A stretch of DNA of 64,000 nucleotides from an uncultured Bacteroidales bacterium (GTDB taxonomy: Bacteria > Bacteroidota > Bacteroidia > Bacteroidales > Bacteroidaceae): contig CADCDP010000012.1 in assembly GCA_902800305.1 (NCBI GenBank), positions 1-64,000 on the forward strand. The letters are read 5' to 3'. A program made the position numbers and the translations under genes. Positions 1,477 through 59,615 of the stretch are shown in pieces. Numbering within the stretch: position 1 is the stretch's first letter; every line of letters starts with the position of its first letter. The notes beneath the pieces were generated by a model. That model searched no databases. It saw only the letters and a list, made by a program, of their open reading frames with translations, and was not told the DNA's origin.

Positions 1477-1559
1477 ACCCCTAAAACGACCACGTCGTAG
1501 TCGGCACATCGACCACGACGTGGTCGGTCTGGTGACCACGACGTGGTCGATTTAGGGGT
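1477..1559. repeat. Triple-palindrome element, 83 nt (copy C)
   Basis: Layout: 10-nt end ACCCCTAAAA, three 17-nt palindromic units (1487-1503, 1510-1526, 1533-1549) separated by 6-nt spacers, and a 10-nt end ATTTAGGGGT. The middle unit is CGACCACGACGTGGTCG. Unit 1 has T at its centre and units 2 and 3 have A, so unit 1 plus the left end pairs with unit 3 plus the right end in a 27-bp imperfect stem, with unit 2 as an apical hairpin. The element at 49300-49382 has the same layout with different arm sequences. It fills part of the 445-bp gap between the DUF488-YraN gene and the histidine kinase; nothing else was recognised in that gap apart from the promoter. Confidence 0.85.
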
Positions 1560-12325: not shown

Positions 12326-12428
12326 TTCCCTATAGGCAACGTCGTTGTCCCGCGTGACTCTTCGTCGTTGAGTCTCGTGACTCTACGTCGTTGCCCCTTG
12401 AGACTCTTCGACGAAGACTCATCGGAAG
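12326..12428 (+). repeat. Multi-palindrome element, 103 nt (copy A)
   Basis: Begins TTCCCTATAGGCAACG and ends ATCGGAAG. It contains several palindromic units centred on CGTCG/CGACG, for example CAACGTCGTTG and GACTC-N9-GAGTC. It aligns without gaps over its length, with roughly 85% identity by eye, to the reverse complement of 59513-59615. It lies in a gene-free stretch of the island (12149-12600). Confidence 0.8.
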
Positions 12429-12513
12429 TTTTGCAACTCGCGGACTCAGGTTGTCACTTTTCCTGCTGAGATTTGTTTCAAGTTGACAGGCTTTCCTTCT
12501 CTAAACTTTCTCC

Positions 12514-49299: not shown

Positions 49300-49382
49300 A
49301 CCTCTAAAGCGCACCCGTCGGGTGCGACGTGCCGTACCCGACGGGTACGATGAACCGTACCCGACGGGTGCGATTTGGAGGT
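49300..49382. repeat. Triple-palindrome element, 83 nt (copy D)
   Basis: Same layout as 1477-1559: ends ACCTCTAAAG and ATTTGGAGGT, 17-nt units at 49310-49326, 49333-49349 and 49356-49372, 6-nt spacers. Unit 1 is CGCACCCGTCGGGTGCG; unit 2 is CGTACCCGACGGGTACG. Unit 1 has T and units 2-3 have A at the centre, as in copy C. The arms differ from copy C but remain palindromic. It fills the gap between the esterase and phosphatase genes, with only a minus-strand TACCTTTG box (about 49432-49439) besides. Confidence 0.85.
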
Positions 49383-54643: not shown

Positions 54644-57600
54644 ATGAAGTGTATAAGAACCATATTGCTGACCATTTTGGGGTTGTCAGCGTTTGCAAAC
54701 AGCTTTGCACAGAGCACGAACGACGAAGACACGCTCTTTGTCTATACCAAGAAGTACCAAGACCCAGCCTTGTATGAGCTGAATGAACTCAACAAGATTA
54801 CCTTCAGCACGAAAGGCGTCCAATTCTGGAACACCGATTGGCCGACCGAATACCCTTACGCGAATGTCAGCGTCCTCTCGTTCAAGAAGCGAGCCACCCT
54901 TCCGAAGCATCTGCGTGGCGATGTGAACAGCGATGGGACGGTGGATATTTCCGACGTGACGGCACTCGTCAACCTGATTCTAAGTTCTACCAACAGCAAC
55001 CCGTATGGGGATGTGAACGGCGACGGCGATGTGAACATCAGCGATGTGACCGAACTCGTCAACATCATCCTCGGCAAAACATTCAAGAAAAGCCCCCAAA
55101 AGCCCAGAAAGGAACCGTCCGAAGGCAACAGACAGGCCACCGCACACCAGTACCTCAACTTCTACCAAGACAAAGTGGTGCTCAAGCAGATTTCCACCGA
55201 AGAGATAGACAGCATGAGCGTGACGGAGACAGAACCGCGCACCATCAACTTGTGGCACAATGGCGAAGTCTTCCTCTCTTACCTTTCCGTTGACATAGAC
55301 AGCATCACGGTCACCAACCAGGGCGGCTATCCCCTCTCCTACATCGGAATCGTCGGCTTCAACGACCAGCTCTACCCCAAAGGCATCGGCATCCTCTCCA
55401 CATACACCGCTAGCCAGTACAAATCCTTCGTGAACAACTTGCCCAGCAAATACGGAACGCTGCTCTATTATGCCGTGGATAACGCGCTCGATATGCTTGA
55501 CAACGCGAACATCCCGACACCGCTGAAGAACGCCACGCTCATCACCTTCACCGACGGATTGGACCAAGGCTCCCTGATGATGACCGACCAGTACGGCTCG
55601 TCGGTGGATTACCTCACGGCCATGAGCCGCCGCATCGCCCAAACCAAGGTGCGCGACCTCCCCGTCACCGCCTATACTGTGGGCTTGCGCGGCAAGGATG
55701 TCTCCAACGAGTCCTTGTTCCAGCAGAACCTGCAGCGGCTGGCAACTTCCCCCAACAATGTGTATGAGCTGAGCAACATATCGGGCCTTCGCTCCAAGCT
55801 GCAAGAAATAGCCAGCCAAATAATCTGTGTGAGCAACCGCCAGACGATGAGTGCCAGGATTCCAGGTATTGACAACGGCACCTTGGTCCGCTTTGTCTTC
55901 GACGGGAAGCCCGCCGCTAGCAGCGAACTGTACATTGAAGGCACCTTCAATCTGCAAGACCGCTCCCTCCACGATGTCACCTACCACGGCCTCAAAGCCA
56001 CCTCCGGCGCCATGGTGCAGGGCACACAGACAGGCATCTTCGTCACCTACACCTTCACGGGTATGCGTCCGTTGTCTGGCAACGGGCTGATTCCCACCTC
56101 GTCGGTCAAGCATTATTACCGTATGCCATCCTCCACCTCATGGCAAATCAACTCCGAGTTTTCCCCCGAAGGCAACACCCAGCGCAGCGTTTCCCACTCG
56201 GGAGCATCCATCTTCCTGATACTCGACTGCTCCAGTTCTCTCGGCAGCGATTTCAGCAAGATGCAGCAATATGCCAACGAATTTATCGACCTTGTCGCTG
56301 GCAATGCAGAACCGTTTAATGTAGTGGCTCCCACAAATGTGTCGGCAGCATTGGCCGAAACCGACTTGGTTATCAATGTCTCTTGGAATGCAGTAAACTA
56401 TGCACAAAGCTATAACGTCTATCGCAGCAGCAGCTCCAGTGGCACTTACGAACTGGTGGCAGAGAATATCACCTCAACCGATTGGACGGACAACGCCCCA
56501 CTAAGCGGCTACAACTATTACAAAGTTTGTGCCGTCAATCGGAACACCTTCAGTTCTCGAAGCTCCTACGCATCTGCGAACGTCACGCTTGATGCTCCCA
56601 CCAATGTTACAGCAGGATTGGATGTCCAGAATAACAATCTGGTCATCAATGTCTCTTGGGATGCTGTGCCATTCGCTCAAAGCTATCAAATCTACCGCAG
56701 TAGCAGCTCTAATGGCACTTATTCATTAGTCGCTGAAAATATCACTTCAACCGATTGGACGGACGAAAGCCCACAAAGCGGCAGCAACTATTACAAAGTC
56801 TGTGCTGTCAATCGCAATGTCATCAGTTCTCGAAGCTCCTACGCATACTTGTATTACAATCTTAGTGCTCCGGCAAACGTCGTGGCAGGATTGGATGTTC
56901 AGAATGACAATTTAGTGGTCAAGGTCTCTTGGGATGCCGTGCAACATGCACAAAGCTACAATGTCTATCGTAGTAGCAGCTCCAGTGGCACTTACGCTCT
57001 GGTTGCAGAGAATGTCACTTCAAATAGTTGGACGGACGACAGCTCGTTAAGCGGCAGTTACTATTACAAAGTATGCGCCGTGGGTTATGGCTTCACCAGC
57101 TCTCAAAGCTCTTACGCATCCGTGAATGTCAAACTGAGTGTTCCCACGAATGTAACGGTGGCAGTGGCCGAGAATGACCTTGTCATCAATCTCTCTTGGG
57201 ATGCCATACAACATGCACAAACTTATCAAATCTACCGCAGTAGCAGTTCCAGTGGCACTTACGAGCTGGTCGCTGAGAATGTCACCTCAAACCAATGGAC
57301 AGACGAAAGCCCCCTTAGCGGCAGCAACTATTACAAAGTCTGTGCCACTGGTTACGGCTTTGCCAGTGCTCAAAGTTCATACACGTCTGTAAATGTCACA
57401 CTTGATGCCCCTACGAACATCAAGGCAGAGGTAGCTGAGAACGACCTTGTTGTCAATGTTTCTTGGGATGCCGTACAGCGTACACAAAGCTATAATGTCT
57501 ATCGTGGTAGCAGCTCCAGTGGCACTTATACATTAGTAGCTGAGAATGTCTCCTCAGCTAATTGGACAGACGAAAGCCCCCTTAGTGGCGGCAACTATTA

Positions 57601-59317
57601 CAAAGTGTGCGCTGTTAATCGGAATGTCAAGAGTTCCCAAAGCTCATACATATCTGTCAGTGTCTCGCTCAATACCCCAACGAACCTCAAAGCAGAAGTG
57701 GCCGAGAACGACCTTGTCGTTAATGTCTCTTGGGATGCCGTACAGCGTACACAAAGCTATAACGTCTATCGCAGTAGCAGCTCTAATGACACTTATACGT
57801 TAATTGCCGAAAATGTCACTTCAACCGATTGGACAGACGAAAGTCCATTAAGTGGCAGTAACTATTACAAAGTGTGCGCTGTTAATCGGAATGTCAAGAG
57901 TTCCCAAAGTTCTTACGTATCTGTGAATGTCACACTTGATGCTCCCACAAATGTTGTGGCGGGAGTGGAGTTTAAGAATAACACATTTGTTGTCAATGTG
58001 TCATGGGATGCTGTACAGCGTACACAAAGCTACAATATCTACCGTAGCAGTAGCTCCAGTGGCACTTACGAACTGGTAGCTGAGAATGTCCTCTTAGCTA
58101 ATTGGACGGACGAAAGCCCATTGGGCGGCAACAATTATTACAAAGTGTGTGCTGTCAATCGGAATGTCAAGAGTTCCCAAAGTTCATACGCATCTGTGAA
58201 TGTCACACTTGATGCTCCCACCAATGTTGTGGCAGAATTGGAATTTAAGAATAACACATTTGTTGTCAATGTGTCATGGGGTGCTGTACAGCGTACACAA
58301 AACTACAATATCTACCGTAGTAGTAGCTCCAGTGACACTTACGAACTGGTGGCTGAGAATGTCCCCTTAGCTAATTGGACGGACGAAAACCCTCTAAGCG
58401 GCAGCAACTATTACAAGGTGTGTGCCGTCAATCGGAATGTCAAGAGTTCTCAAAGTTCATACACATCGGTGAGTGTCACGCTCAATGCTCCCACAAACGT
58501 CGTGGCAGGCCTTGATGTTCAAGATAACAATAGGGTAATCAATGTCTCTTGGAATGCTGTGCAATATGCCCAAAGCTACAAAGTCTATCGTTGTGGTAGC
58601 TCCAGTGGCAGTTATACGTTAGTGGCTGAGAATGTCAGTTCTACCAGTTGGACGGACAACAGCCCATTAGGTGGCAATAACTATTATAAAGTGTGTGCCG
58701 TCAATCGGAACATTTTCAGCTCTCAAAGTTCATCTTCTAATGTTGTTTTTGTAAGTAGTTGTCCTGATGCCAACCACCCCCATGCGATTGACCTCGGTTT
58801 GCCCTCTGGCACGAAGTGGGCCTGCTGTAACGTGGGTGCATCGTCTCCAGAGGATTACGGCGGCTATTACGCTTGGGGCGAGACACAGACGAAGAGTGTG
58901 TATAATTGGGACACGTATCAATATGGCAGTAGTTCAAGCAATGTGGTGAACATCGGTTCCAATATTGCCGGCACCAAATATGATGCGGCCACGGCCAACT
59001 GGGGTGCTTCTTGGTGTATGCCATCAAAGGAGCAGATTATTGAACTCGTCTACAACTGCTCCTATCAATGGACACAGCAGAACGGCGTAAATGGTGGTCT
59101 GTTCACCGGTCCTAACGGCTATAGCGTTTTCCTGCCCGCTGCTGGCGGCTGCTGGACTGGTGAGCTGCACAAAGAGGGTTCCCACGGCTACTACTGGTCG
59201 TCTTCGCTTGTGATCTACCCGCAAAACGCTTTCTACTTCTGCTTCTTCTCGGACTACGCGCGCTGGGACTACTACTACCGCGACGACGGTTTCTCCGTGC
59301 GTCCAGTCTCAAAATAA
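54644..59317 (+). CDS. Large surface protein: dockerin, vWA-like, nine FN3, FISUMP
   Basis: 1557 residues from the ATG at 54644 with signal peptide (CIRTILLTILGLSAFANSFAQ). Order: dockerin type I pair of Ca-loops near residues 88-146 (GDVNSDGTVDISDVTALVNLIL and GDVNGDGDVNISDVTELVNIIL); a vWA-like region near 226-396 with GTLLYYAVDNAL and TFTDGLDQGS; an isolated DxSxS-type strand-helix near 522-550 (IFLILDCSSSLGSDF); nine FN3 repeats (about 560-1370); a C-terminal FISUMP domain (AIDLGLPSGTKWACCNVGAS ... GASWCMPSKEQI ... YYWSSS). It is probably an adhesin or carbohydrate-binding surface protein. No cohesin partner is in the window. Confidence 0.9.
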   Translation: MKCIRTILLTILGLSAFANSFAQSTNDEDTLFVYTKKYQDPALYELNELNKITFSTKGVQFWNTDWPTEYPYANVSVLSFKKRATLPKHLRGDVNSDGTVDISDVTALVNLILSSTNSNPYGDVNGDGDVNISDVTELVNIILGKTFKKSPQKPRKEPSEGNRQATAHQYLNFYQDKVVLKQISTEEIDSMSVTETEPRTINLWHNGEVFLSYLSVDIDSITVTNQGGYPLSYIGIVGFNDQLYPKGIGILSTYTASQYKSFVNNLPSKYGTLLYYAVDNALDMLDNANIPTPLKNATLITFTDGLDQGSLMMTDQYGSSVDYLTAMSRRIAQTKVRDLPVTAYTVGLRGKDVSNESLFQQNLQRLATSPNNVYELSNISGLRSKLQEIASQIICVSNRQTMSARIPGIDNGTLVRFVFDGKPAASSELYIEGTFNLQDRSLHDVTYHGLKATSGAMVQGTQTGIFVTYTFTGMRPLSGNGLIPTSSVKHYYRMPSSTSWQINSEFSPEGNTQRSVSHSGASIFLILDCSSSLGSDFSKMQQYANEFIDLVAGNAEPFNVVAPTNVSAALAETDLVINVSWNAVNYAQSYNVYRSSSSSGTYELVAENITSTDWTDNAPLSGYNYYKVCAVNRNTFSSRSSYASANVTLDAPTNVTAGLDVQNNNLVINVSWDAVPFAQSYQIYRSSSSNGTYSLVAENITSTDWTDESPQSGSNYYKVCAVNRNVISSRSSYAYLYYNLSAPANVVAGLDVQNDNLVVKVSWDAVQHAQSYNVYRSSSSSGTYALVAENVTSNSWTDDSSLSGSYYYKVCAVGYGFTSSQSSYASVNVKLSVPTNVTVAVAENDLVINLSWDAIQHAQTYQIYRSSSSSGTYELVAENVTSNQWTDESPLSGSNYYKVCATGYGFASAQSSYTSVNVTLDAPTNIKAEVAENDLVVNVSWDAVQRTQSYNVYRGSSSSGTYTLVAENVSSANWTDESPLSGGNYYKVCAVNRNVKSSQSSYISVSVSLNTPTNLKAEVAENDLVVNVSWDAVQRTQSYNVYRSSSSNDTYTLIAENVTSTDWTDESPLSGSNYYKVCAVNRNVKSSQSSYVSVNVTLDAPTNVVAGVEFKNNTFVVNVSWDAVQRTQSYNIYRSSSSSGTYELVAENVLLANWTDESPLGGNNYYKVCAVNRNVKSSQSSYASVNVTLDAPTNVVAELEFKNNTFVVNVSWGAVQRTQNYNIYRSSSSSDTYELVAENVPLANWTDENPLSGSNYYKVCAVNRNVKSSQSSYTSVSVTLNAPTNVVAGLDVQDNNRVINVSWNAVQYAQSYKVYRCGSSSGSYTLVAENVSSTSWTDNSPLGGNNYYKVCAVNRNIFSSQSSSSNVVFVSSCPDANHPHAIDLGLPSGTKWACCNVGASSPEDYGGYYAWGETQTKSVYNWDTYQYGSSSSNVVNIGSNIAGTKYDAATANWGASWCMPSKEQIIELVYNCSYQWTQQNGVNGGLFTGPNGYSVFLPAAGGCWTGELHKEGSHGYYWSSSLVIYPQNAFYFCFFSDYARWDYYYRDDGFSVRPVSK
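56326..58755 (+). repeat. Nine tandem FN3-coding repeats of 264-273 nt
   Basis: Each unit encodes about 88-91 residues of the form APTNV...LVINVSWDAVQ...YRSSSSSGTYELVAEN...WTDESPLSGSNYYKVCAVNRN. Central units (about 57400-58480) are near identical over long stretches, for example the codons for AVNRNVKSSQSSY. This suggests recent unit duplication or gene conversion. Confidence 0.9.
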
Positions 59318-59419: not shown

Positions 59420-59536
59420 ATGGCAGACATCAGACAAATCATCACAAGAGAGCATGAAGAACGAGCGTTCATCCACCTCTACCACGAAGGGGTGTCGCCA
59501 TATCACGAAAAGCTTCCGCTGACTCTCCGTCGTTGA
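59420..59536 (+). pseudogene. Small ORF cut by the multi-palindrome element
   Basis: The frame reads MADIRQIITREHEERAFIHL, then YHEGVSPYHEKLPLTLRR and stop. Its last eight codons lie inside the repeat element at 59513-59615, and the stop is in the element. The preceding 31 codons look like a genuine protein start (acidic/basic helix) that lost the rest. Family not recognised. Confidence 0.4.
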
Positions 59537-59615
59537 GTCACGAGGGGCAACGACGGAGAGTCACGTGACTCAACGACGAAGAGTCATGCGAGGCAACGTC
59601 GTTGCCTATAGGGAA
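59513..59615 (-). repeat. Multi-palindrome element, 103 nt (copy B)
   Basis: Reverse-complement partner of 12326-12428, about 85% identical by eye. It contains GGCAACGACGTTGCC (minus strand) and TGACTC-N9-GAGTCA units centred on CGTCG/CGACG, plus a 16-bp stem formed by the unit near 59521-59563. The rest of the gap (59616-59745) shows nothing recognisable. Confidence 0.8.

Follow-up and report, generated by a model that had tools for sequence, protein, structure and literature searches.

Closest described repeat families

Dispersed palindromes are usually explained as REPs made by RAYT transposases or as dead MITEs. The elements analysed here lie in a 64,000-nucleotide (nt) stretch of DNA, hereafter the window, from a rumen-type Bacteroidaceae genome (3.67 Mb in 70 contigs). 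Like the repeats of REP/BIME–RAYT systems, they are short, palindromic, dispersed and extragenic, and they are enriched at gene ends. CGTC-tagged REPs, some without a known dedicated transposase, have been reported from Bacteroidetes among other phyla (PMC3733652). Unlike REPs and CGTC-REPs, our elements are trimers at a 23-bp pitch in a fixed 83-nt frame, occur without a RAYT, carry genome-specific arms that switch at inherited sites, and have CGTCG at the centre of each unit rather than a CGTC tag at its end.

Four further families invite comparison. Rickettsia palindromic elements (RPEs) are palindromic, measure roughly 100–150 nt and lie in frame within protein genes (reviewed in PMC10969869). 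In-frame insertion is also seen here, in a glycerate kinase and a prmC-like gene, but RPEs belong to another phylum and have another layout, and that review describes neither fixed-pitch arrays nor arm switching for them. The BrickBuilt MITE of Porphyromonas gingivalis carries a tandem 23-nt unit, AGAYCATARTATCCTCTCRTRTG, between a leader and a tail, with IS5-family-like terminal inverted repeats (TIRs); it is intergenic, has small inverted ends, is found as filled and empty sites between strains, and reaches 18 repeats in one copy (PMC4596501). It shares with our elements the order Bacteroidales, an intergenic location, a 23-nt pitch (in both families described here, A and B), apparently inverted ends and filled or empty sites. 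However, its unit has no CG-bounded palindrome, its consensus and TIRs, compared by eye, are unlike our units and ends, its repeat number can be large, and arm switching is not described for it (PMC4596501). DNA uptake sequence (DUS) dialects of the Neisseriaceae, species-conserved dispersed repeats with inverted pairs near terminators and a cognate DNA-binding protein, ComP (PMC3630211), resemble our elements as species dialects of a dispersed repeat, but DUS are short, non-palindromic, present in thousands of copies and without a 23-bp trimer frame. Finally, PINSR of Prevotella intermedia is a 188-bp, amplified, intergenic repeat of conserved sequence that lacks terminal inverted repeats (PMC4755523); it too is specific to a Prevotella lineage, amplified and intergenic, yet it is a different element.

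Two elements in the window and their family

A sequence-only reading of the window had described two 83-nt elements, at 1477–1559 and 49300–49382, with a common 10-17-6-17-6-17-10 layout. Coordinates and layout are both correct, and the two sequences align without gaps over all 83 nt; no strand is assigned to either. Element 1 is a trimer of a rarer arm type, CGACCACGWCGTGGTCG, that is also seen in a relative (G020). Its left end ACCCCTAAAA (1477–1486) is complementary, except for the inner base, to its right end ATTTAGGGGT (1550–1559), and between them lie unit 1, CGACCACGTCGTAGTCG (1487–1503, with T at the centre), unit 2, CGACCACGACGTGGTCG (1510–1526), and unit 3, TGACCACGACGTGGTCG (1533–1549). 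Element 2 is a trimer of the dominant arm type of its genome, CGnACCCGWCGGGTnCG, made up of CGCACCCGTCGGGTGCG (49310–49326), CGTACCCGACGGGTACG (49333–49349) and CGTACCCGACGGGTGCG (49356–49372); it lies between two tandem genes, 38 nt downstream of the first and 75 nt upstream of the second.

The arms quoted in the sequence-only reading are the middle units of the two elements. Its description of all 17-mers as palindromes is exact, apart from the central base, for three of the six, the other three each having one mismatch. Its rule for the unit centres, T in the first unit and A in the others, stands for the outer units of most copies in the genome (T and A in 36 of 44, A and T in three, T and T in three, A and A in two), whereas the A of unit 2 is a coincidence (25 A, 21 T). 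An 11-nt direct repeat, CTTCTTTGGAC, is present at 1449–1459 and 1570–1580, 17 nt and 10 nt off the ends of element 1; seen around this copy only, it is possibly the target-site duplication of a longer element.

BLAST and pattern searches of the whole genome gave further copies, and the first 13 three-unit copies read were all exactly 83 nt long. A covariance model built on these 13 copies, themselves pattern matches, returned 106 strand-wise matches, equivalent to about 53 elements, in an inventory based on searches and on the sequence stretches around the matches. The exact layout recurs in 46 of the roughly 53 copies; three variants consist of one or two units. A reversed layout pattern, used as a control, has no match in the genome, so the family is not a product of chance.

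Each element is built from a 17-bp recognition palindrome, CG-nnnn-core-nnnn-CG, with CGWCG at its dyad centre and CG at both ends; copies of this unit, usually three, follow one another at a strict 23-bp pitch and are enclosed by short inverted ends. Only 11 of 1848 arm positions deviate in the genome, the two n positions and the central W being left out. Spacers keep only their purine/pyrimidine pattern and the ends drift; the latter follow ACCYCTAAA/TTTAGRGGT, with a complementarity just slightly above that of shuffles. The elements are directional, spacer 1 ending in GC and spacer 2 resembling ATGCGT. Arm conservation is fairly judged on two sets only, the copies found by the covariance model and those fetched by protein: in a third set, of flank clusters, a substitution rate of zero was obtained for the fixed arm positions, but the loci of this set were fetched by arm pattern, which biases the rate, and it is not used as proof. 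The protein-fetched set, from glycerate kinase genes, does have a few arm deviations (G010 in unit 1, CAACGTCG..., and G018 in units 1–3).

Folding, gene context and a possible RNA-level explanation

All four RNA strands of the two window elements are predicted to fold stably (−54 to −61 kcal/mol, z −7.6 to −9.9, with 0 of 200 shuffles as good). The predicted fold is one long hairpin that pairs unit 1 with unit 3, not three separate hairpins. Columns 13 and 71 are paired in 13 of 13 copies, with three double changes, whereas the local alternative, 13 with 25, is paired in 4 of 13, and a model of three local hairpins was rejected on this comparison. The sequence-only reading named two findings that would count against a covarying element, a restriction to two sites and unpaired changes in the arms; at columns 13/71, in the outer half of the middle helix, neither was seen. 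Its stronger claim, that paired changes prove structural selection, is not supported as it stands: columns 25 and 59 are paired in just 16 of 46 own-genome copies and the basal stem is only slightly above shuffles. Across 134 elements from many genomes, basal stem pairing is modestly above shuffles, and G–T mismatches are about as common as A–C mismatches. Most of the apparent covariation reflects one arm type being exchanged wholesale for another; the arm sequence itself is almost invariant. The outer units of 178 arrays take the '+ −' orientation in 136 cases and '− +' in 9, a polarity bias beyond what pairing alone requires. Taken together, pairing and polarity indicate that symmetry matters, yet the arm sequence is the most conserved feature.

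Eleven of 35 clean intergenic copies in the genome lie between convergent genes (P ~ 2 × 10−6 against the intergenic make-up of the window, a base rate that comes from one 64-kb stretch with few intergenic regions and a simple ORF caller). Many copies lie 20–60 nt past a stop codon. Four copies are between divergent genes, some are inside genes, and in tandem gene pairs the elements are oriented sense in seven cases and antisense in nine, with no gene-strand bias. The folding energies, the positions between convergent genes and after stop codons, and the A-run and T-run ends of copies in some relatives, which resemble a bidirectional terminator, would all suit an RNA hairpin of 3′ untranslated regions that is selected for pairing and serves as a terminator, stability element or RNase III target. 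We nevertheless consider such a hairpin improbable, as most own-genome copies have no U-tract after them, the copies between divergent genes or within genes are misplaced for it, there is no strand bias, G–T is no commoner than A–C, basal pairing is weak, and sequence is better conserved than pairing. The lack of gene-strand bias and the similar frequencies of G–T and A–C point to a DNA-like rather than a single-strand RNA-like character.

Distribution and arm types

The elements recur in relatives with the same layout and exchangeable arms. A layout pattern with free arms matched 19 of 45 genomes of the genus, with 1 to 113 copies each, and the reversed-pattern control gave zero for most; the compared genomes are draft assemblies, mostly metagenome-assembled genomes (MAGs). 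When 60 relatives were sampled, the family was present in 16 genomes of the genus and in none of the 24 genomes from other families of the order. Among the matches listed in a GTDB-wide pattern scan, almost all are in rumen Bacteroidaceae or Prevotellaceae MAGs, the others being a few GC-rich actinobacteria and one haloarchaeon, apparently by chance. The small order-level sample and the listed GTDB matches suggest that the family is confined to its own rumen lineage, where it could provide natural markers for rumen Bacteroidaceae genomes.

Arms are nearly invariant within a genome and differ between genomes, with five or more types on the one layout: type i is CGAYNTCGWCGANRTCG, type ii CGnACCCCTCGGGTnCG, type iii CGAYGTCCCCGACRTCG and type iv CGnnGTGCCCCACnnCG, type v is the dominant type of the window's own genome, and type vi is that of element 1. 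Several unrelated types can also coexist in one genome, as in G014, which weakens the case for a coupling of the arms to a single protein. The same genome holds two copies, at C67:984–1046 and C80:37878–37940, of a further type, CGCACTCGACGACTGCG / CGCGTTCGTCGAACGCG, possibly a young or foreign dialect.

Different arms at the same site

Comparison of flanks yielded 21 orthologous clusters, 8 of which contain more than one arm type, although at some of the mixed clusters the flanks align on one side only. In the clearest intergenic case, L079 (G000) and L194 (G020), the sequences on either side can be aligned right up to the element, and the arms are of different types.

The strongest case lies within a coding gene. 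An in-frame element occupies one position of a glycerate kinase gene in at least 11 species (G000, G003, G007, G010, G011, G013, G014, G017, G018 and two or more further MAGs) and makes up a loop of the protein (L086 3001–3084 in G000:C26; also L160–L168). Four arm types (i, iii, iv and v) are represented among these copies. The element is absent in G002, G008, G022 and others, and in species without it the loop is ordinary or shortened. In a protein tree computed with the insert left out, the carriers group together with support (97/97), two non-carriers falling among them, a pattern that fits one old insertion plus losses; a type i and a type iii allele are sisters with moderate support (91/81). 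The simplest reading of these sequences is one old insertion, losses and several arm switches; insertion time and again at one precise hot spot would be a less simple alternative.

Could arms be switched by mutation alone? Hairpin-templated (quasipalindrome) correction would keep the arms complementary and ectopic gene conversion would homogenise the copies, without a binding protein or selection. This would explain why a half-arm and its complementary partner switch together, for example CGTACCCCTCGACTACG with CGTAGTCGAGGGGTACG in L051, and conversion anchored in the common ends could yield fused trimers of the kind described below. This artefact is quite unlikely, however: in the copies concerned neither spacers nor ends have been homogenised, columns 25/59 stay unpaired, and the arms hold even in a coding gene whose flanks have diverged.

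Gained, empty and fused sites

The sites in G003 and G017 that correspond to locus L025 of the own genome are empty: their intergenic gaps are about 73 and about 112 nt, respectively, against 199 nt, and the covariance model finds no match there. Comparison of filled with empty sites established no consistent target-site duplication. The prmC-like gene of the own genome contains an in-frame element that is absent from this gene in the relatives read; what G020 carries at that point is a simple repeat unrelated to the element. This loop of the gene (L130–L144) is occupied by various short repeats in other species, for example by CAACTCTCAAC-type runs in G016 and AAAACTCAAAAACT runs in G020, which makes it a permissive insertion spot.

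Six-unit arrays are present in four genomes. In G013, a type iii trimer is joined to a type i trimer in 23-bp register; at the same site G036, whose left flank is 94% identical, has a type i trimer alone, with the same middle unit as the G013 array and a near-identical tail. The six-unit array of G020 joins a type iv to a type ii trimer. These fused two-type arrays look like intermediates of in-place replacement.

Gained and fused sites bear on a further alternative, in which the elements are immobile binding sites of a host protein with a genome-wide role, used in chromosome organisation or in DUS-like recognition of self DNA, and their arms change by point mutation and selection. Near-invariant arms, genome-specific types and the retention of sites across species, even in a coding gene, are what such sites would show, and DUS dialects, species-specific repeats with inverted pairs near terminators, set a precedent (PMC3630211). 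On the other hand, presence and absence of the element, multiple types per genome and in-register fusions require block-wise gain of DNA, and the copy number is far below that of DUS. We regard immobile sites as unlikely.

Search for a partner protein

The REP/BIME comparison made in the sequence-only reading predicts a RAYT gene, and on this main test it failed. The absence of a RAYT that had been remarked on for the window extends to the genome: Y1_Tnp (PF01797) has no match in it (92.7% complete), the same search being positive in five control genomes. Neither of two element-rich relatives, G033 (113 copies) and G062 (84 copies), has a strong Y1 match, most other element-rich genomes likewise lack one, and strong matches in the genus are mostly in genomes without elements. 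No units at 23-nt pitch were found around eight fetched Y1 loci. The unpaired GTAG/CGTC tag at one end of a palindrome is not present either, CGWCG being central and the ends CG, and units come in arrays rather than singly, lying within elements among the unit matches listed. Membership of REP/BIME–RAYT was rejected on these grounds: no Y1 protein, no repeat-flanked transposase, no end tag, and fixed spacing. Mobilisation by a RAYT (a Y1 HUH transposase) keeps in its favour that our elements are dispersed extragenic palindromes favouring gene ends and that some CGTC-tagged REPs have no dedicated transposase (PMC3733652), but we consider it highly implausible.

Nor did gene neighbourhoods single out a trans-acting factor: gene families recurring beside elements were only orthologous or generic genes, and no neighbour common to the long arrays, as expected of a factor's operator, was found, the fused trimers coming to light instead. 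No Rfam family matched the elements at gathering threshold or by E-value. Within the window Rfam reported two tRNAs only, and weak, below-threshold matches to miRNA models fell at other loci. In the core site of a tyrosine recombinase, a spacer of 6–8 bp separates two inverted arms, each about 11 bp long. Two neighbouring half-units and their spacer, CGWCGnnnnCG-RYNNRY-CGnnnnCGWCG, form an 11-6-11 arrangement that fits such a site by layout only.

Proposed explanation

For the observed layout, near-invariant arms, filled and empty sites, mixed-type orthologous sites and in-register two-type arrays, we tentatively favour, with confidence a little short of even, a modular, non-coding, dispersed DNA element whose arms are read by a sequence-specific protein and whose arm types are overwritten in place. 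The arms would be recognised in trans by a sequence-specific DNA-binding protein, which may be a recombinase or a transposase, and the element would move occasionally. When the specificity of this protein changed, or another such protein took over, trimers of the new type could enter existing elements in register, by block insertion or by conversion anchored in the common ends. Loss of the old arm type would then leave species 'dialects' at inherited positions. We infer the binding protein, the block insertion or rewriting and any benefit to the host.

A more doubtful possibility is a chromosomal family of fixed-pitch palindrome arrays in which the recognition sequence is overwritten in place, at dozens of inherited sites, while a candidate DNA-binding or recombining protein shifts its specificity; such a 'dialect' system, if real, would have no described counterpart in Bacteroidota. 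In the elements described here, the recognition sequence switches at positions that are themselves inherited, even within a coding gene, and the fused arrays are apparent intermediates. This makes the co-evolution of a repeat family with its binding protein testable, and predicts a sequence-specific protein.

A sister family in the window

A second family, B, has four CGWCG cores at a 23-nt pitch with unrelated arms. The window holds two copies of it, at 12326–12432 on the minus strand and 59509–59615 on the plus strand, that are 87% identical to each other, and the genome about 31 substantial copies (81–94% identical). Cores are spaced by exactly 23 nt in 79 of 80 spacings, and the common pitch and core suggest that families A and B form one superfamily. 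A different kind of repeat occupies 56327–58831 of the window, where nine tandem copies of a 267/273-nt unit, 61–78% identical to a reference copy, probably encode a protein with repeated domains.
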